Source: an uncultured Erysipelotrichaceae bacterium
GTDB lineage: Bacteria > Bacillota_I > Bacilli_A > RF39 > UBA660
NCBI GenBank assembly: GCA_948442015.1
Contig: CAOJRP010000010.1
Location: forward strand, 1 to 50,436
Reading direction: 5' to 3'
Length of the DNA stretch: 50,436 nucleotides
Each line of letters begins with the position of its first letter. The stretch's first letter is position 1. The position numbers were made by a program, and so were the translations under genes. The notes below the pieces were generated by a model. The model saw only the letters and a list, made by a program, of their open reading frames with translations. It did not search any database and was not told the DNA's origin. This document shows positions 1,330-43,724 of the stretch, piece by piece.

Positions 1330-1564
1330 AGTTCACCTCTTTAAAAACAAAAATTCTATTATTACACAAATAATAGAATGACCTGTTCAAAATTAATCTA
1401 ACAATCTCAACAACGAAATTCAAAAAAACTTCATTAGTTAGTAATATTACTAATGATGGAAAAATAAGAACCAAAAGAAAATCCTTTTTAGAAAAATTAA
1501 TTTCAAAATCTCTTTTACTTTTTTTCTTACTTTTCTCAGATGAGTATTTAATTTTACCATCCAT
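1316..1564 (-). CDS. Small membrane protein, candidate retron effector
   Basis: An 82-residue protein between the structured RNA and the reverse transcriptase. It has a strongly basic N-terminus (Lys/Ser-rich, residues 4-18), a hydrophobic segment at about 29-43, a second amphipathic or hydrophobic segment at about 46-60, and a short aromatic tail. A strong ribosome site (GGAGGTG) sits 7 bases before the ATG. The position inside the retron unit and the 14-bp overlap with the enzyme gene suggest it is the accessory effector. Some described retrons (Ec48 and other type IV systems) use a two-transmembrane effector; similarity to them is by layout only, and I do not recognise a named family in the sequence. 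Confidence 0.75.
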   Translation of the reverse strand: MDGKIKYSSEKSKKKSKRDFEINFSKKDFLLVLIFPSLVILLTNEVFLNFVVEIVRLILNRSFYYLCNNRIFVFKEVNYEFG

Positions 1565-1594
1565 TTTTCTTCACCTCCAATAATAATTATTACT

Positions 1595-1817
1595 AGAGGC
1601 CTCATTGACTAAATTGATTGTCAATAGAACAGGCCATCTAGCTATACCATAGTAATATGGTATAGCTACTTATTAGGTATTACATCAATATGATTAGCAA
1701 TTTTTAGTAGCAATTCTTACTGATGCTCCCTAATTAAGAGACGACCACAAATAATATAGCCAAAAGATTGCGAATACTCTAAAAGAGTATCGAGTAAATC
1801 AATGAGCTTCGTTGTAT
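1595..1817 (-). ncRNA. Candidate retron msr-msd RNA
   Basis: The untranslated leader between the promoter and the membrane-protein gene folds heavily. Reading the minus strand: an a1 segment CTCATTGA (1806-1799) pairs perfectly with a2 TCAATGAG (1608-1601), extended inward by a G-U and an A-U pair; inside lie a hairpin at 1771-1793, a short hairpin around 1731-1745, a long imperfect stem closed by CATCA/TGATG (about 1682-1725), a perfect 13-bp stem with a four-base loop (1639-1668), and a stem GGCCT/AGGCC with inner ATTGAC/GTCAAT (1596-1635). Terminal complementary segments around several hairpins are the msr-msd layout. The priming guanosine and the msr/msd boundary cannot be fixed by eye. 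Confidence 0.7.
1639..1668 (-). repeat. Perfect 13-bp hairpin, candidate msd stem
   Basis: TAGCTATACCATA and its exact reverse complement are separated by four bases. It is the most stable hairpin of the leader and the best candidate for the part copied into msDNA. No T-run follows it on the minus strand, so it is not a terminator. Confidence 0.7.
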
Positions 1818-1822
1818 TTATA

Positions 1823-1851
1823 ATTATATACTTTTTTGGACACAAAATCAA
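1823..1851 (-). promoter_or_regulatory. Sigma-A-like promoter of the retron
   Basis: TTGATT (1851-1846) and TATAAT (1828-1823) are separated by exactly 17 bases on the minus strand. The predicted start near 1815-1817 lies about ten bases before the a1 segment, so the RNA would begin just outside the a1/a2 stem, as expected for a retron transcript. Confidence 0.75.
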
Positions 1852-1877
1852 TATTTTTTACCAATTTTTTCCATAAT

Positions 1878-1901
1878 AAAAGTACTTACTTGAAGTACCT
1901 T
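1878..1901 (-). terminator. Possible terminator upstream of the retron promoter
   Basis: A 9-bp stem with one G-U pair (AAGGTACTT / AAGTACTTT, loop CAAGT) is followed by TTTTATT on the minus strand. It would end transcription coming from the SNF2 gene side and insulate the retron promoter. The T-run is short. Confidence 0.45.
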
Positions 1902-1914
1902 ATTTTGTATTTAC

Positions 1915-1989
1915 TTACGTTATAGCCATTCCTCTTTTTTGGGCTAAAACTATTCCACCATGTCCAGCATCTACAACCACTTTTGTCAT
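1915..1989 (-). pseudogene. Amidase_3-like N-terminal remnant
   Basis: A 24-codon reading frame begins with an ATG preceded by a good ribosome site (GAGGTGATAAAC) and encodes MTKVVVDAGHGG, the start of an N-acetylmuramoyl-L-alanine amidase (Amidase_3) domain, where the histidine binds zinc. After GG the similarity stops and the frame ends at TAA. The rest of an amidase is not visible between here and the left edge. It may be a gene remnant whose body was lost when the retron arrived. It lies 60 bp after the SNF2 gene. The match rests on about ten residues, so chance or a true small peptide remains possible. Confidence 0.4.
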
Positions 1990-2049
1990 GTTTATCACCT
2001 CAATATAATCTATGATAAACATCCTATTTAGACACTATACTTTTATAAA

Positions 2050-5000
2050 TTACTCTTCTGTATATGCTAACAAATCTTTAATATCTTTTTCCGTCAATGA
2101 AGATAAAGCCTCACTATTATGCCCTTCAATCAAATTATCTCTTAAAACTTTCTTCTTTTCTTGCAGTTCAATGATACGCTCTTCAATAGTCCCTTTCGTC
2201 ACAAGTTTCAACACAGTAACTTTCTTTGTCTGACCAATACGATGTGCTCTATCTGTAGCTTGGTCCTCAACAGATGGATTCCACCAAATATCCAAATGAA
2301 TTACTGTATCAGCACCAACTAAATTAAGACCTGTTCCCCCAGCTTTTAAAGTTATCAAGAAACAACTAGTATCATCCTCATTGAACTTATCTACCAATCT
2401 AACTCTTTCCTTATTCTTAACATCCCCATCAATCATATAAGAAGAAATACCTTCTTTTTCAAACTCTTTTTGAACATTTTTTAATACTCTCTTAAAACTG
2501 CTAAAAATCAACATCTTATGCCCATTTTCAATACTATCCTTAACAATATTTATTAACTCTTCAATCTTCGCTCTTTCCCCATCATAATTTTCATACATAA
2601 CACTAGGGTCAATACATATTTGTCGTAATTTTGTTAAAAGTTGTAACAACTTGATTCTTGATTTCAAGAAACCTTCGGTAGCAATAATCTCATCCATTTC
2701 TCGTTTAGTATCTTCTAATTCTTTCATATACAAAAGCTTTTGTTTCTTAGGCAATTCAATATAAATCTTGTTCTCAATCTTATCAGGTAAAGACTCTGCT
2801 ACTTCACTTTTCTTTCTTCTTAAAATAAAAGGCTTAATTTGCAAACTCAAAGTTTTTAACACTTCCAAATCTTCCTCTGCTACATCATGAACATTATACT
2901 TCTCTTTAAACTTAGCTAAAGAATTTAAGTACCCTGGCATAATAAAATCAAAAATGCTCCATAATTCCGTAATATTATTCTCAACAGGAGTACCTGTTAA
3001 AGCAACTTTACACTTACTCTTAATCTTCTTAATCTCCCTAGTCATTCCTGCTTGGTAATTTTTAATTGTCTGAGCTTCATCAATAACACATAACTCAAAA
3101 TCCATATTTTCATATTCGTCATTATCATTACGAATTAACCCATAAGTAGTAATAAAAATATTATATTTATCTTTATTATTTAAAACTTCCAATCTTTTAG
3201 CTTTATTCTCAGCGACAACTACATATTTTAAATCACTACCAAACTTTTCAAATTCCTTTTGCCAGTTATAAATCAGTGATGTCGGAGCCACAATCAAAAT
3301 CTTCGCGTCTTTATTTTCTTCTAAAATTTGCTTAATAAAGGAAATTGTTTGAACACTCTTACCAAGCCCCATTTCATCGGCTAAAATGCCCCCTAAATCA
3401 CACTTATAGATTGTTGTTAGCCACCTAACTCCTTCTTTTTGATAATCTCTTAATACTTTACTATCATTTTTATCGAAAGAAACTTCCAAATCTTTATACT
3501 TTGCAAAATTCTTAATAAAGTCATCAAACAAATTATTAGTCTTAATATCCTTATAGCGATTATTTTTCAAACTATCTATATACAATGCTCGATATTTAGG
3601 TATTTCAGCACTACCATTTTCGATATCCACACCACTGATTTCCAAATCTTGCATTAAAGCATTTAAATTAGATAATTCTTCATTCTCATTTAAAGAAACC
3701 ACATTATTATTCTTAAGCTTATAATACTTTTTCTTAGCTTTTAGAGCTTTAAACAACCCGTTTAATTCATTTGAGTCTAAACCTTCAACATCAAACTTAT
3801 AAGACAATATCCCATCTTCTCCAATAGAAAAGTTATTATTAGTTTTCATCTTCTTAAAAATATTAATACTATCTATTTTCTTACTAGTAAATACTTCATA
3901 TTTTTCCGCTAAAACTGACAAATTCTCATCTAAAAAACTATAAATTCCCTCTTCATCAGCTAAAACTAGTTCCTTATTCTCTTCCCTAAAACCAAAGCCA
4001 AGCATTTCACTATAAACTTCGTCTTCAGTGTCCTTATCTCTTAAAAAATCAGATTTCTCAGAATATCCTACTTCTTTGCCACTATAATCAAATTTCACTT
4101 GACATTTCAACTTACTATATAAAATATCAAAATACAACTTCGTATTTACTTCTTTAGGCAAATCGATATCTGTAATTGCTTCATCTATTTCAATATTGCC
4201 CTTCATTTTTCGAAACAAGCCTTCACCAAACTTATTAATTGTCTCTTTTTTAAATTCTAAACTACTAATTCTTTGCTGTTCTAGTACTTTTAAATAATTA
4301 CTTTCAAACTCATTTAAAATATACAAATTATGCTTATAAACAACATATTTTTTACTTTCTAATAAAACATGGTAATTAGTAAAATCTTCAATAGTTACTT
4401 TAAAATTATCATTTGTTTCTTCTAATTTATACTTTGTTGGCATTCCATCTAGTACAGCATTTATTTCACCTAAACCAGCTATTTTAAAAGTTCTATTTTT
4501 TAGTAAAGATAGTATTGACTCAAAGTCTCTAACATTCATATCTAAGGGACTCATATAATAATTATCTTGAGTAGCACCATTTAAAATAAAATCAAATATT
4601 TCTTTATCTTCTTTATCAAAATAATGCTTGTTTGGGTCATAAGTAAAATTTTTCCCAAATTCAAAAGCTCTATTTCTTCGATAAGCTCTCATAAAATTAT
4701 AAAATTTATTATCATTAAGAGTATATAACTTTTTAACTCCAAGAAACAACTTTAAAGAAATACTATTATTATGAAATTCAAATTCAAAATCCAAATTAAG
4801 TTTCTCTTTTATTTCCTTTTTATCATTATTAACAAATAAATTTAAAACATTCAAAGAAGCTTCTAAAGGATTAACATACTCTTTAGAAAATATTTCGTCA
4901 GAATAAAAATACAATACAGTAGCAATATGGGGACAAGCTTGACTTCTTCTAAACCTCTCACAGTTACATCTAATGCTATGTAATGCCCCACCATTATTTT

Positions 5001-6369: not shown

Positions 6370-7471
6370 CTCCTAATTTGACAGTTACTTCTTGTTCCTT
6401 TTTATTTCTTATTAACTTCATTTTAACTTCATCTCCAACCTCATGCTTATATAACTCACTTCTAAAAGATGAAATTGATGTGATTTTTTTGTCTTCTATC
6501 TCAGTAACAACATCTCCCGCTTTAATTCCTGCTTTGGCAGCTGGAGAATCATCTACCACGGAATTAATAAATACACCATAATCAGCTTTAATATCCACAT
6601 CACTATAGTATTTAGCTGCCTCAAGTTCCATCATATTAATTCCAATATAAGGTCTTTTTATCTCTTCTCCTTTTTCTAGTTTTTCGGCAATATTTAAAGC
6701 ATCTTCTATAGGAATTGCAAAACCAATCCCCTCTACACCAGTTGCAGCAACTTTACTAGAAGTTATTCCAATTACTTCACCATTACTATTACATAAAGGA
6801 CCGCCACTATTTCCACTATTTATTGCAACATCAGTTTGGATTACATTCATTGCTACAGTATCATTATTTAACATTGAATTAGATAGACTAACAGTTATAG
6901 TACGATCTTTTCCAGACAATATTCCTCTTGTTACAGTCCAACCATACTCTTCACTGACAGGAGAACCTACAGCAAATGCTGTGTCCCCAACTCGTGTAGA
7001 TTCACTACTTCCAAGAGTTGCAATAACACTAATATCTTTGGAAGAAACTTCTAATATTGCAACATCACTATACTTGTCGCCACCGACTAAGGTAGCATCT
7101 AATATTTCGCCTTTAGTTAAAGTAACAGTAAACTTGTTACCTCCATTTATTACATGATAATTAGTTAAAATATAAGCTTTTTCTCCTTCTACTTTATAAA
7201 CAAAACCAGTTCCTGAGCTATAAGCTTTTTCATTTTTATAACTAAGAACAGTCACAACAGCATCATAAACTTTTTCAACAGCATCAGCAATCCCCGTATC
7301 TGTTACTGTAACCTCTTTTTCTGTTTTCGTAATATTTGTTATCTCTTCTACTGAATTAGGGTGGTCTTTAAAATATTTAATCGTCAGCCCTACTCCTAAG
7401 CACAAAGTTAAAACTCCGACAATTACTATAATTAAAGCTTCCACAAAATAATTTTTCTTTTTAGTTTCCAT
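6359..7471 (-). CDS. htrA: HtrA/DegP-like membrane-anchored serine protease
   Basis: About 370 residues. One N-terminal membrane segment (about residues 8-28) anchors a trypsin-like domain outside the cell, followed by a C-terminal PDZ domain. The catalytic triad is visible: His in LTNYHVI, Asp in YSDVAIL, Ser in NSGNSGGPL. HtrA proteins degrade or refold damaged exported proteins, and the PDZ domain binds substrate C-termini. The ATG at 7471 is chosen over an upstream TTG because it gives the standard short basic N-terminus; a GAGG lies about ten bases upstream. The start overlaps the end of the Abi_2 gene by 11 bp, so both are probably on one transcript. Confidence 0.93.
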   Translation of the reverse strand: METKKKNYFVEALIIVIVGVLTLCLGVGLTIKYFKDHPNSVEEITNITKTEKEVTVTDTGIADAVEKVYDAVVTVLSYKNEKAYSSGTGFVYKVEGEKAYILTNYHVINGGNKFTVTLTKGEILDATLVGGDKYSDVAILEVSSKDISVIATLGSSESTRVGDTAFAVGSPVSEEYGWTVTRGILSGKDRTITVSLSNSMLNNDTVAMNVIQTDVAINSGNSGGPLCNSNGEVIGITSSKVAATGVEGIGFAIPIEDALNIAEKLEKGEEIKRPYIGINMMELEAAKYYSDVDIKADYGVFINSVVDDSPAAKAGIKAGDVVTEIEDKKITSISSFRSELYKHEVGDEVKMKLIRNKKEQEVTVKLGANS

Positions 7472-8402
7472 ACATATCAATCCTCGCTATATCTTCAAAA
7501 TTTCTTGGAAAACCTGATGCATCTAATACTTTATTAATACTAATAGAATGCAGTTTTCCTTCAAGTATATTAACTTCATAAGCAAATTCATTAATTAAAA
7601 GAGTAAAATCGTCTTCTCTTAACATAAACTTCAAAATGATAATAAGTGCAAATAAATCTTCCTTACCATATATATATTCTCCATCTTGTTTAGGAATATT
7701 TAAAAGTTCATGATATTTTGTATTTTCGATAATCTTATGAGTTTTATGTTCATAGATTATATCTTCATGAGCACATAAATTCCTAAAGTTTGCTAAAATC
7801 GGTAAATATACTAATAACTGTTCAACACTTACGCCATAAATTTCTGCTATTTCTTTTTGGTCATCAGGTTTCAATATCGTAAATAACTCACTAACAATTC
7901 CAAATGATAGGACTTTAACAAGTATCCACAAAGGTACATACCCATAATTATTCATGTAATGTTCTGTCGCTGTATGTTGCACCCCATTAACTCTTATCTG
8001 TCTTTTCATTTTTTTCAGTAAATCATTCACTTGCTTAACTTTATCTTGACTACGATTAAAATTAGCTGGATTTAAATAATTTTTTTCTTTAATTCCGTAT
8101 TTTTTTGATAACACATAAGAGAAAATACTTTTAGCATTATTTTCTATTATAAGCAAATTTTTAAAAATTATATTTCTTATTTGCCTATCGAAATTAAAAA
8201 GTCCATACAACTCACGAAAGTTAGTACCTGGTATAAACATTCTATCTTTAAAAGATTTTAAAAACAAATGACGATATCCACTTATGAAGAAATAGTTTTC
8301 TCGTAGCAAAATATCTTTAGCATAATCAATATCATCAATTACTAAGCCTTTACTTTTTAAGATAGAAATCTGCTCGTCTAAAGTCTTGAATGTCTTTACC
8401 AT
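7461..8402 (-). CDS. Abi_2 (AbiD/AbiF-like) HEPN protein
   Basis: A 313-residue protein of the Abi_2 family. The N-terminal pattern (LDEQISILKSKGL, then ENYFFISGYRH) and LFNFDRQIRNII are typical, and the C-terminal half carries RNLCAHE, the R-x4-H motif of HEPN ribonucleases. Family members include lactococcal abortive-infection proteins that block phage growth. The ATG at 8402 has AGGTG six bases upstream. It sits between cwlD and htrA and overlaps htrA, which is an unusual setting for a defence gene. An abiF-type RNA, described near some such genes, has no room downstream. Activity is inferred from the family. Confidence 0.87.
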   Translation of the reverse strand: MVKTFKTLDEQISILKSKGLVIDDIDYAKDILLRENYFFISGYRHLFLKSFKDRMFIPGTNFRELYGLFNFDRQIRNIIFKNLLIIENNAKSIFSYVLSKKYGIKEKNYLNPANFNRSQDKVKQVNDLLKKMKRQIRVNGVQHTATEHYMNNYGYVPLWILVKVLSFGIVSELFTILKPDDQKEIAEIYGVSVEQLLVYLPILANFRNLCAHEDIIYEHKTHKIIENTKYHELLNIPKQDGEYIYGKEDLFALIIILKFMLREDDFTLLINEFAYEVNILEGKLHSISINKVLDASGFPRNFEDIARIDMYGN

Positions 8403-8499
8403 AGCTATCACCTATTATAGAATTATAACACATGAGCTAGATAAATGATATGGTTTTTATGTGATTTATTAGTTATAAATTTGTGAAAAATAAGTGAAA

Positions 8500-10635: not shown

Positions 10636-10665
10636 CCAAACCACCAATAACATTATAACACATTT

Positions 10666-10684
10666 TATGAAGCAGTACTTAACA
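10666..10684 (+). promoter_or_regulatory. Candidate Xre operator, first copy
   Basis: The half-site CTTAACA (10678-10684) is identical to that before the second Xre gene, while its left partner TATGAAG matches the perfect one at only five of seven positions. The same stretch of about 45 bases, down to the ribosome site, is nearly repeated before both genes. Confidence 0.4.
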
Positions 10685-10731
10685 GATAATTTTTTTGTTT
10701 TGTTCTATATTAATTATAGGTGATAAGAAGT

Positions 10732-10980
10732 ATGACTACATTTAGAAGAGATTTTGATTTTATAGAAAATTTAAATATAGTAATATCTAAAAATGTACGT
10801 AAATATCGTAAATTAGATGGAATTACTCAAGAACAATTAGCTATTGATATTGGAGTTTCTGTTGATTATTTAAGAAGATTTGAAACACAGGAAGGAAAAG
10901 AAGGAATGTCTATTAAAACTTTATATAGAATTTCTGTAGTTCTAAATACTCCCATAAATAAATTTTTAGAAAATAATTAA
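10732..10980 (+). CDS. Xre-family HTH regulator, copy 1
   Basis: An 82-residue protein that is almost entirely a helix-turn-helix_3 domain: NVRKYRKLDGITQEQLAIDIGVS, then DYLRRFETQEG and a C-terminal LYRISVVLNTPINKFL. Such short cI/Xre proteins usually repress their own and neighbouring promoters. The ATG at 10732 is eight bases after AGGTGA and matches the start of its tandem paralogue at 11117; upstream residues are not conserved between the two. It is one of only three plus-strand genes in the window and runs against the direction of replication. A terminator follows, so it forms its own unit. Confidence 0.88.
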   Translation: MTTFRRDFDFIENLNIVISKNVRKYRKLDGITQEQLAIDIGVSVDYLRRFETQEGKEGMSIKTLYRISVVLNTPINKFLENN

Positions 10981-10987
10981 TCACTAG

Positions 10988-11020
10988 GATTTAAAGCTTT
11001 TCATTTAAATCTTTTATTTT
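10988..11020 (+). terminator. Terminator after the first Xre gene
   Basis: GATTTAAA and TTTAAATC form a perfect 8-bp stem with an eight-base loop, followed by TTTTATTTTT. It separates the two tandem regulator genes. Confidence 0.8.
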
Positions 11021-11051
11021 TATATTACTTAATAAATAGTCATAATTTGAT

Positions 11052-11070
11052 TGTTAAGCAATACTTAACA
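11052..11070 (+). promoter_or_regulatory. Candidate Xre operator, second copy
   Basis: TGTTAAG-CAATA-CTTAACA is a perfect 7-bp inverted repeat with a five-base spacer, the usual size for a dimeric Xre operator. It lies about 45 bases before the start of the second Xre gene, at the same distance as the partly decayed copy before the first gene. Confidence 0.55.
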
Positions 11071-11116
11071 GATGATTTTTATGTTTTAGTCTATATTAAT
11101 TATAGGTGAAAAGTTT

Positions 11117-11371
11117 ATGACTACATTTAAAAGAGAGTTCTATTTTGTAGAGAATTTAAATATAATAATATCTAAAAATGTTCGCAAATATCGAAAACTA
11201 GTTGGAATTACTCAAGAACAATTAGCTATCGATATAGGTATTTCTGCTGATTATATAAGAAGATTTGAAACACAAGGTGGTAGAGAAGGTATATCTTTAA
11301 AAACTTTATATAAAATTTCAGTTGTTTTAGATACTCCTATAGGTAAATTTTTTGAGGATACTGAAGAATAA
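11117..11371 (+). CDS. Xre-family HTH regulator, copy 2
   Basis: An 84-residue tandem paralogue of the regulator at 10732. The two share most positions, including VRKYRKL-GITQEQLAIDIG and TLY-ISVVL-TPI-KF; differences are mainly in the recognition-helix area (VSVDYLRRFETQEG versus ISADYIRRFETQGG) and the acidic tail (FEDTEE). The ATG follows AGGTGA by seven bases. The duplication includes the upstream control region, so both may bind related operators. It precedes the DUF3800 gene on the same strand, though a hairpin with a T-rich tail lies between them. Confidence 0.88.
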   Translation: MTTFKREFYFVENLNIIISKNVRKYRKLVGITQEQLAIDIGISADYIRRFETQGGREGISLKTLYKISVVLDTPIGKFFEDTEE

Positions 11372-11468
11372 TTTATAGTAATAAAAATATTTAGCATCCT
11401 TTTTAATTCTTGTAAGAACAGACAAACAGAAGTTTTAAGCTTTTGTCAATGTTATCTTTTCCTTTTTC

Positions 11469-11624: not shown

Positions 11625-12359
11625 ATAAAAAATGAAATATTTATTCTTATGGATGACTCAGGTAAATTAAATAGTAATGAAAATTCCTGTATTTTTGGTG
11701 GATTATTTTTTTACTCTTCAGAAGAATATTTAAATTTTATAAATAAATATAAAAGTATAATTAATGATTTAAAATGTAAATATTGCAATCAAAATATTGA
11801 AAAATGTGATAAAAATTGTATAGAAATAAAAGCAACTACAAAATTAAAACAAGCAGATAGAAGAAGAATATTTAACCTAGTAAAAAAGCAAAACAATTAT
11901 GGAGTATTTATTAACAATACTAAACTTTATAATAGAATTTTAGAAGATAAATCTTCCAGAGGTAGATATTGTGACTATGCTCAAAAATTAATTGTTAAAC
12001 AAATTGTATTATACTCTATTAAAAATAAATTCATAAACCCTTCTAATGATTTAACAATACGCATAAAATCAGATGATGCTAAAACTAAAAGTAATGGGTA
12101 CTATAGTTTAAAAAATAGTATATATGAAGAATTAGTAAATGGAATTATAAATTTTGACTATTCTATAATACATAAACCTATTTTAAATGGGAACTTAAAA
12201 GTTACTTTAAAAATGTATAATTCAAAATTTCATTATGGTATTCAAAGTGCTGATATAATGTCTAATTATCTACATAGAGAATTTGAGCAATATTTAACTA
12301 ATAACAAAGATATTTCCGCTACTACAAACTTTATTGAAGTTAAATTATTTTTGCCATAA
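11625..12359 (+). CDS. DUF3800 protein with unusual start
   Basis: A DUF3800 protein, with the family signatures DDSG at the N-terminus, EIKATTK, KSDDAKT and the C-terminal QSADIMSNYL carrying a conserved Asp. The acidic pattern suggests an RNase H-like metal-binding core; no function is firmly known, but members occur with phage-defence genes and retrons. A CxxC-like pair (CKYC, CDKNC) at about residues 50-65 is an insertion. The first in-frame ATG (11649) falls on the Met immediately before DDSG and would remove the usual first strand. The frame extends upstream through KNEIFIL to an ATA at 11625 that has GAAGTGAG at ideal spacing, so the start may be ATA, perhaps a mutated ATG. Confidence 0.8.
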   Translation: MKNEIFILMDDSGKLNSNENSCIFGGLFFYSSEEYLNFINKYKSIINDLKCKYCNQNIEKCDKNCIEIKATTKLKQADRRRIFNLVKKQNNYGVFINNTKLYNRILEDKSSRGRYCDYAQKLIVKQIVLYSIKNKFINPSNDLTIRIKSDDAKTKSNGYYSLKNSIYEELVNGIINFDYSIIHKPILNGNLKVTLKMYNSKFHYGIQSADIMSNYLHREFEQYLTNNKDISATTNFIEVKLFLP

Positions 12360-12362
12360 GAA

Positions 12363-12497
12363 AAAGGAATCAAAGTTCCTCATTCCTAACCGAGATGGTG
12401 CTAAGCACTAAATTATAAATCATACATCGGTTATAGACCTGACAAAGCAATAACGCTTTCGGTACAAGTAATATAACATAATGTTGTATTACTTGTC
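12363..12497 (+). ncRNA. Candidate DUF3800-associated structured RNA
   Basis: Right after the DUF3800 stop codon the sequence changes composition and folds into consecutive stems: AGGAAT/ATTCCT (12365-12387); an outer CCGA/TCGG stem (12390-12430) enclosing GTGC-TAA-GCAC; AAAGC/GCTTT (12444-12459); and a 15-bp hairpin with one G-U pair and a three-base loop (12464-12496). No T-run follows, so the last hairpin is not a plain terminator. Computational surveys have described several RNA motifs found next to DUF3800 genes; this may be one of them or a relative. The strand is assumed from the neighbouring gene. Confidence 0.5.
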
Positions 12498-12505
12498 AAT
12501 TATAG

Positions 12506-12696
12506 TATATGATTTCTATGGCAATCGCATAAAAAATAGTATTGATAATCTAACCTCAATAAAATAAGGGATTAGTCAAAAATATTTATATTACAAACTT
12601 CATGTAACAAAAATTTACTAAATTGATTTTTTTAAGTATTTATGGGACTTTTTTACTTTGTGTCAAATTTTTATGCGATTGCCTTATATGATTTCT
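12506..12696. mobile_element. MITE-like element with flanking direct repeats
   Basis: A 167-bp non-coding element (12518-12684) is bounded by 16-bp perfect terminal inverted repeats GGCAATCGCATAAAAA (12520-12535) and its complement (12668-12683). The 12-bp sequence TATATGATTTCT lies directly outside both ends (12506-12517 and 12685-12696), as a target-site duplication would. It has no coding capacity, so it would need a transposase from elsewhere. I cannot assign an insertion-sequence family. Perfect repeats suggest recent insertion. Confidence 0.75.
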
Positions 12697-32654: not shown

Positions 32655-32877
32655 TTGACACCTCTTTCAAAATAAAAAAAGTCATAATATAAGGACGAGT
32701 TAATCCCGCGGTACCACCTTATTTTATGACTTAACATACACTTTAATTCTTAACGTGAATTATTCGTTTTGACTCCAGAACCATCTTCTATATCAAATTT
32801 TACTTTTTTACACCAAACAAAAGCTCTCTATCAAAATTTTAATATATACTCTTTCTTTCATTGCCAATTACAAAATT
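32655..32877 (-). promoter_or_regulatory. T-box leader of the dut-metG operon
   Basis: The minus strand carries the conserved T-box AAGGTGGTACCGCGG (about 32707-32721). A terminator stem AAGTCATAA...TTATGACTT encloses it, followed by seven T, and the alternative antiterminator would use the T-box itself. Uncharged tRNA should switch expression on. The downstream metG predicts a methionine AUG specifier; an ATG in AGATGGTTCT (about 32781-32790) is a candidate, but the specifier loop cannot be fixed by eye. Confidence 0.92.
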
Positions 32878-43610: not shown

Positions 43611-43626
43611 ATAATTTTACTCCTAA

Positions 43627-43724
43627 AAAAAGTGCACACAAACAGAGACTATTAAAGCTGCTACCTTCCGGTTCTGACTTGGTTCTAGTATATTTGTTGC
43701 ACGATTAAAATATTAGCACTTTTT
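43627..43724 (-). ncRNA. ffs: Signal recognition particle RNA, small type
   Basis: The minus strand has the SRP apical domain GTCAGAACCGGAAGGTAGCAGC with its GGAA tetraloop, inside a long imperfect hairpin closed by AGTGC/GCACT ends and followed by seven T. The RNA is about 90-95 nucleotides, the 4.5S-like form without an Alu domain, unlike the 6S-like scRNA of Bacillus subtilis. It binds Ffh for co-translational membrane targeting. A TATTAT -10 box lies directly upstream; parS overlaps the expected -35 region. Confidence 0.93.

Follow-up and report, generated by a model that had tools for sequence, protein, structure and literature searches.

A minus-strand RNA gene homologous to DUF3800-I and a predicted RNase H-fold protein as a candidate RNA-controlled cassette

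Does the DNA directly behind a DUF3800 gene of an uncultured Erysipelotrichaceae bacterium encode a structured RNA, from which strand is it made, and what might it do for the neighbouring protein? An earlier note had read positions 12363-12497 of the window (the whole stretch of 50,436 nucleotides analysed here) as a plus-strand RNA of four consecutive stems, which together with two Xre genes could form an RNA-protein system of the defence or toxin-antitoxin type.

Strand, fold and family of the RNA gene

Our analysis indicates, with very little room for doubt, that the minus strand from 12463 to 12357 is an RNA gene of its own, backed by covariation and homologous to the Rfam DUF3800-I RNA. 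The earlier note had correctly recognised a structured RNA associated with DUF3800, and had placed it on the wrong strand and within the wrong bounds. The gene is about 105 nt long and lies directly behind the DUF3800 gene, convergent to it (Table 1). Its minus-strand components are a promoter (12499-12470), the structured RNA (12463-12382) and a terminator-like hairpin with a T-run (12381-12357); from the sequence, the 5' end is predicted at ACCG (12463) and the 3' end in the T-run at the DUF3800 stop codon.

Table 1. Coordinates of the RNA gene, its parts, the DUF3800 gene and the neighbouring scar
Feature	Position	Strand	Basis or remark
Structured ncRNA gene, DUF3800-I-like	12357..12463	-	R1 model, RF02969 match, covariation
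-35 box TTGACA of the RNA promoter	12494..12499	-	Kept in homologues
-10 box TATATT, preceded by TG	12470..12475	-	Inside palindrome 12464-12497
P1, 5' hairpin ACCG...C(A)GGU closing GAAAGC/GCUUU	12437..12463	-	Both-side changes at 4/8 pairs
P2 (12433-12427 with 12393-12387), closes the three-way junction	12387..12433	-	Both-side changes at 7/7 pairs
Junction core: P2b (12423-12421/12397-12395), P2c (12420-12418/12414-12412) and P3	12395..12423	-	Covariation; layout as Rfam consensus
P3, GUGC/GCAC	12408-12405/12401-12398	-	Covariation; layout as Rfam consensus
Terminator-like hairpin and T-run, abutting the DUF3800 stop codon	12357..12381	-	Position conserved, sequence variable in homologues
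DUF3800 gene, RNase HII-like fold, four-cysteine insertion	11631..12359	+	Pfam, AF2 model, fold match
Scar: promoter and 5' half of another, compact DUF3800-type RNA gene	11390..11459	-	Alignment to L125

The RNA consists of the 5' hairpin P1 followed by a three-way junction (P2/P2b, P2c and P3), and it is covariation, not folding energy, that establishes the gene. On the plus strand, the stretch 12363-12497 folds strongly (-38.2 kcal/mol, z = -6.2, 0 of 200 shuffles as good), a score that comes largely from a near-perfect palindrome (12464-12497) outside the RNA proper; on the minus strand the same stretch gives z = -3.0, and the RNA alone (12357-12463) folds modestly better than shuffles (z = -1.6). 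In the alignment of the R1 model, whose 23 RNAs all come from outside the clade of the window, 96.0% of the pairs are standard and 15 of 27 changed on both sides, with 30-38% pairing when slid. The full alignment of 46 distinct homologues gave 96.6% pairing and both-side changes at 22 of 27 pairs (244 cells, 0 of 500 shuffles); since this alignment was fitted to the model, the R1 test is the cleaner one. Each of the 25 pairs that the window RNA contains is standard, and A5 pair 38/92, in P2, is C-G in the window and U-A in 13 clade relatives, a compensatory difference. The compensatory changes that had been named as a check on the earlier reading are thus abundant.

The RNA promoter of the window (TTGACA-18-TATATT) is of the sigma-A type with 11 of 12 consensus matches, and a promoter of this type stands at the same position in 44 homologues (mean 10.5 of 12 matches versus 7.5 in shuffles); in 41 of these 44 the -10 box lies exactly 5 nt ahead of the conserved TACCG. 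The four stems can now be assigned. The two middle ones stand, as P1 and P2/P3 of the minus strand. The first (12365-12381) is not an RNA stem of the plus strand but the minus-strand terminator-like hairpin, the A-run after the stop codon being its T-run; it is too poor in G-C pairs to reach the threshold of a simple terminator scan. The last, described as a 15-bp hairpin, indeed has no T-run on the plus strand, because it is not a terminator: the palindrome is the sigma-A promoter of the RNA. A plus-strand RNA was rejected in view of the minus-strand promoter of the homologues and of the Rfam and R1 matches. That the plus-strand hairpins are the 3' end of the DUF3800 mRNA (terminator or UTR), as first read, is barely credible despite their strong fold, as the last of them is a promoter palindrome lacking a T-run, both models match the minus strand only, and the order of gene and RNA differs between loci.

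In many homologues, L042, L047, L064 and the window among them, inverted repeats of variable sequence surround the RNA promoter, and dyads scoring at least 10 occur in 7 of 30 loci versus 3% in the cross-locus control, a subset and not a universal trait. Operator-like dyads are not claimed as a general feature of the RNA promoter, because they are enriched in that subset alone. Could they be the operator of some regulator? A MITE-like element with 19-bp terminal inverted repeats (12517-12686) is inserted about 18 bp upstream of the promoter and has five more copies in the same genome, four of them near-identical.

R1 matched the window over its full length on the minus strand (70.4 bits, E 6e-12). 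The Rfam search proposed earlier was answered in part: in cmscan, RF02969 (DUF3800-I) also matched full length and on the minus strand, at 34.6 bits, below the gathering cut-off of 44.2, and relatives pass that cut-off with 47-74 bits, while the copy of a Streptococcus satellite phage reaches 98 bits. An RF02969 search of the organism's own genome returned no match, as expected because the window copy is sub-threshold. We class the window RNA as a divergent variant, homologous to DUF3800-I but short of membership by threshold. Like its relatives it shares with RF02969 the helix order P1, P2/P2b, P2c, P3 and terminator and the location next to a DUF3800 gene (in the window, 11649-12359), and the relatives also share the UUAAG-P3 core; it differs in its score, in a P3 shortened to 4 bp and in the convergent arrangement. 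The DUF3800-I RNA reportedly comes from the set of Weinberg et al. 2017, with no function assigned, and our literature search on its function found nothing. Two further structured RNAs of the window, a T-box leader (32688-32870, minus strand) and a small SRP RNA (43616-43713, minus strand), are ordinary.

The DUF3800 protein and its pairing with the RNA

The protein matches Pfam PF12686 (E 2e-4), and its AF2 model (pLDDT 90.8) found RNase HII 1eke as the best solved match (E 1.3e-4, probability 1.00, TM about 0.5, about 12% identity); a PDB sequence search gave nothing credible. D8, G11, E65, K67, D148, S198 and D208 are invariant in 53 of 53 diverse homologues. From the model and these residues we infer an RNase H-fold nuclease with a predicted acidic active site of D8, E65, D148 and D208. 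The likeness to RNase HII lies in the predicted fold and in a D-[DE]-[SA]-G motif on strand 1, which we take to resemble that of RNase HII; low identity, the modest TM score, an added four-cysteine segment and an RNA partner set the two apart. In the window the start codon is ATA where close relatives have ATG, a single-base difference in a MAG and possibly an error. The first in-frame ATG is at 11649, and a start there would drop the first strand; this allele may thus be poorly translated beside an intact RNA.

DUF3800 homologues were collected from relatives, genome contigs (42 loci) and viral contigs (3 loci). Alignment A1 proved too divergent a basis for scanning contigs. With R1, every one of the 45 protein-first loci yielded a single RNA, convergent downstream of the gene in 44. 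The 386 genomes searched from the same family contain 29 RNAs and, at E below 1e-50, 23 close DUF3800 genes. Every one of the 23 has an adjacent RNA, and six of the 29 RNAs (L070, L081, L087, L089, L092 and L093) lack a close DUF3800 gene. All six retain promoter, fold and terminator, and L087 still carries a C-terminal remnant of the DUF3800 gene. At L063, L064 and L067 the DUF3800 gene is truncated or frameshifted beside an intact RNA (the frameshift calls come from MAGs). These data show that the pairing is near-obligate and that retention is asymmetric; the solo RNAs might also reflect a separate function of the RNA, or a recent loss of DUF3800. Two of the solo RNAs, L089 and L093, from different genera, adjoin spore coat genes resembling cotJB/cotJC, each from a different side, and at L053 an IS91-like transposase (1421-3220) is inserted between DUF3800 and its RNA.

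Among named phages and plasmids, an RNA is present beside DUF3800 in 7 of 8, downstream or upstream of the gene, and none was detectable beside the DUF3800 gene of L131 (Mycoplasma). Where a distant DUF3800 has no cysteine segment, the RNA that follows it directly on the same strand is a compact form without P1; several compact RNAs are weak model matches whose reading was guided by the conserved core sequence. A link between the four-cysteine insertion and P1 was considered and rejected: the proteins of L066 and G283/G437 have no cysteines, yet the model covers their RNAs from end to end, P1 included. Co-directional downstream RNAs occur at L021, L066, L126, L128, L130 and L132 as well as beside distant DUF3800s, and co-directional upstream RNAs at L127 and L129.

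Because convergent, co-directional downstream and co-directional upstream positions all occur, and the RNA has its own promoter and no fixed 5' UTR position, the RNA is not a UTR or riboswitch of the DUF3800 gene; and because the order varies while proximity is constant, it appears to act in trans. At most loci the two genes converge and their 3' ends abut, which would suit an RNA that regulates the DUF3800 mRNA in cis or as antisense, by base pairing or convergent transcription. We consider such regulation very improbable, as upstream and co-directional arrangements exist and duplexes between the RNA and the mRNA 5' region are no better within a locus than across loci (permutation 0.083), leaving no signal of antisense pairing to the RNA's own DUF3800 mRNA. 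It is also improbable, if less so, that DUF3800 matures or degrades an RNA with an independent regulatory role: the nuclease fold and the persistence of solo RNAs would fit, but promoter and terminator already fix both RNA ends, and an RNA beside every close DUF3800 gene is a tighter linkage than a general processing enzyme needs.

Neighbouring genes and mobile context

The cassette is ordered repressor-DUF3800-RNA-integrase in several elements, or lysin-DUF3800-RNA, after the endolysin. The interval between repressor and integrase and the position behind the endolysin are usual places of phage cargo. We infer that phages, satellites and chromosomes probably carry the DUF3800-RNA cassette as exchangeable cargo. 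Neighbouring genes are diverse, and enrichment in defence islands is weak. In the congener G001, whose flanks are about 90% identical to the window, a different DUF3800 with a compact RNA occupies the same site, and the window keeps there a 70-bp scar whose counterpart RNA gene is intact in G001; cassettes therefore seem to have been exchanged at one site.

The two Xre genes proposed as parts of the system did not hold up as such. They represent a small gene tandemly duplicated with its upstream region (10665-11371; 250 nt at 84% and 63 nt at 87%). Both copies are conserved in G001 beside another DUF3800, and no close copies stand beside other DUF3800s; judged by this comparison, the pair is conserved flank and not a component. 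The window also encodes, on the minus strand, an Abi_2/AbiD-type gene (7461-8411; Pfam PF07751 E 1e-40, PADLOC AbiD E 2.5e-57) that is kept in G001; an Rfam search found no AbiF-type RNA.

Possible function and meaning

An RNA-protein system of the defence or toxin-antitoxin type is, we believe, the best reading, as first proposed. In an evenly balanced judgement, the trans-acting RNA may form a ribonucleoprotein with the nuclease, most likely restraining it, in a toxin-antitoxin or phage-defence cassette. DUF3800 would bind the conserved three-way junction in trans, and the near-consensus promoter would supply RNA in excess. That excess would keep the nuclease inactive, as in an RNA-antitoxin/protein-toxin or abortive-infection cassette, and the nuclease would be set free if the RNA were lost or a phage supplied the trigger. 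The RNA is suggested as the antidote because solo RNAs persist and DUF3800 breaks beside intact RNA.

The main rival holds that the RNA is an activating cofactor or scaffold and that the DUF3800 effector nuclease works solely as a ribonucleoprotein in phage defence. Obligate pairing with flexible order would agree with this, RNase H-fold nucleases often act in ribonucleoproteins, and DUF3800 has been tied to Cas12a2 loci and non-coding RNAs (PMC10910872). Under activation one would less expect solo RNAs that keep promoter, fold and terminator intact, or a DUF3800 gene decaying beside an intact RNA, and neither RNA end has a variable guide-like segment. We regard activation as rather unlikely, the asymmetry leaning against it.

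Restraint of the nuclease by its RNA can be compared with known systems. In type III toxin-antitoxin systems (ToxIN, CptIN, TenpIN, AbiQ) a nuclease is joined to an RNA partner made in excess, as proposed here; the DUF3800-RNA pair differs in having no tandem RNA repeats, no ToxN fold and an RNA that is not necessarily upstream. Type III RNAs are tandem repeats upstream of the toxin, whereas the window RNA is single, non-repeated and convergent downstream. CRISPR/OMEGA guide RNAs combine a scaffold with a variable guide; the present RNA is conserved to its promoter- and terminator-defined ends. The nearest tested parallel is AbiF_Cd/RCd22 of a C. difficile prophage, in which a sigma-A-promoted RNA of about 100-130 nt represses a toxic protein and co-purifies with it (PMC12373285). 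It also has an RNA with sigma-A promoter and terminator beside the protein gene, but its protein is of the Abi_2 type, related to Cas13 ancestors, and its RNA lies upstream with two repeated motifs, whereas here the protein has a predicted RNase H fold and the RNA a single three-way junction. The TPR-DUF3800 linked to Cas12a2 has an RNase H-like domain and is RNA-linked (PMC10910872); the present DUF3800 comes without CRISPR, Cas12 or TPR.

Somewhat more tentatively, DUF3800 and its DUF3800-I-type RNA may constitute an undescribed RNA-controlled immunity or toxin-antitoxin module, in which a single three-way-junction RNA would restrain an RNase HII-like nuclease or work together with it. Such a module would have no relationship to ToxIN or AbiF; temperate phages and satellites would spread it, and swaps would take place at fixed sites in the chromosome. 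DUF3800-associated RNAs have been known as Rfam families without known function; here the strand, promoter and ends of an approximately 105-nt gene are defined, a candidate active site of the predicted nuclease is named, and the genetic asymmetry predicts which partner would be the antidote. Cargo positions in temperate phages add to this case, and an orphan RNA family thereby becomes the subject of a directly testable toxin-antitoxin or phage-defence hypothesis.
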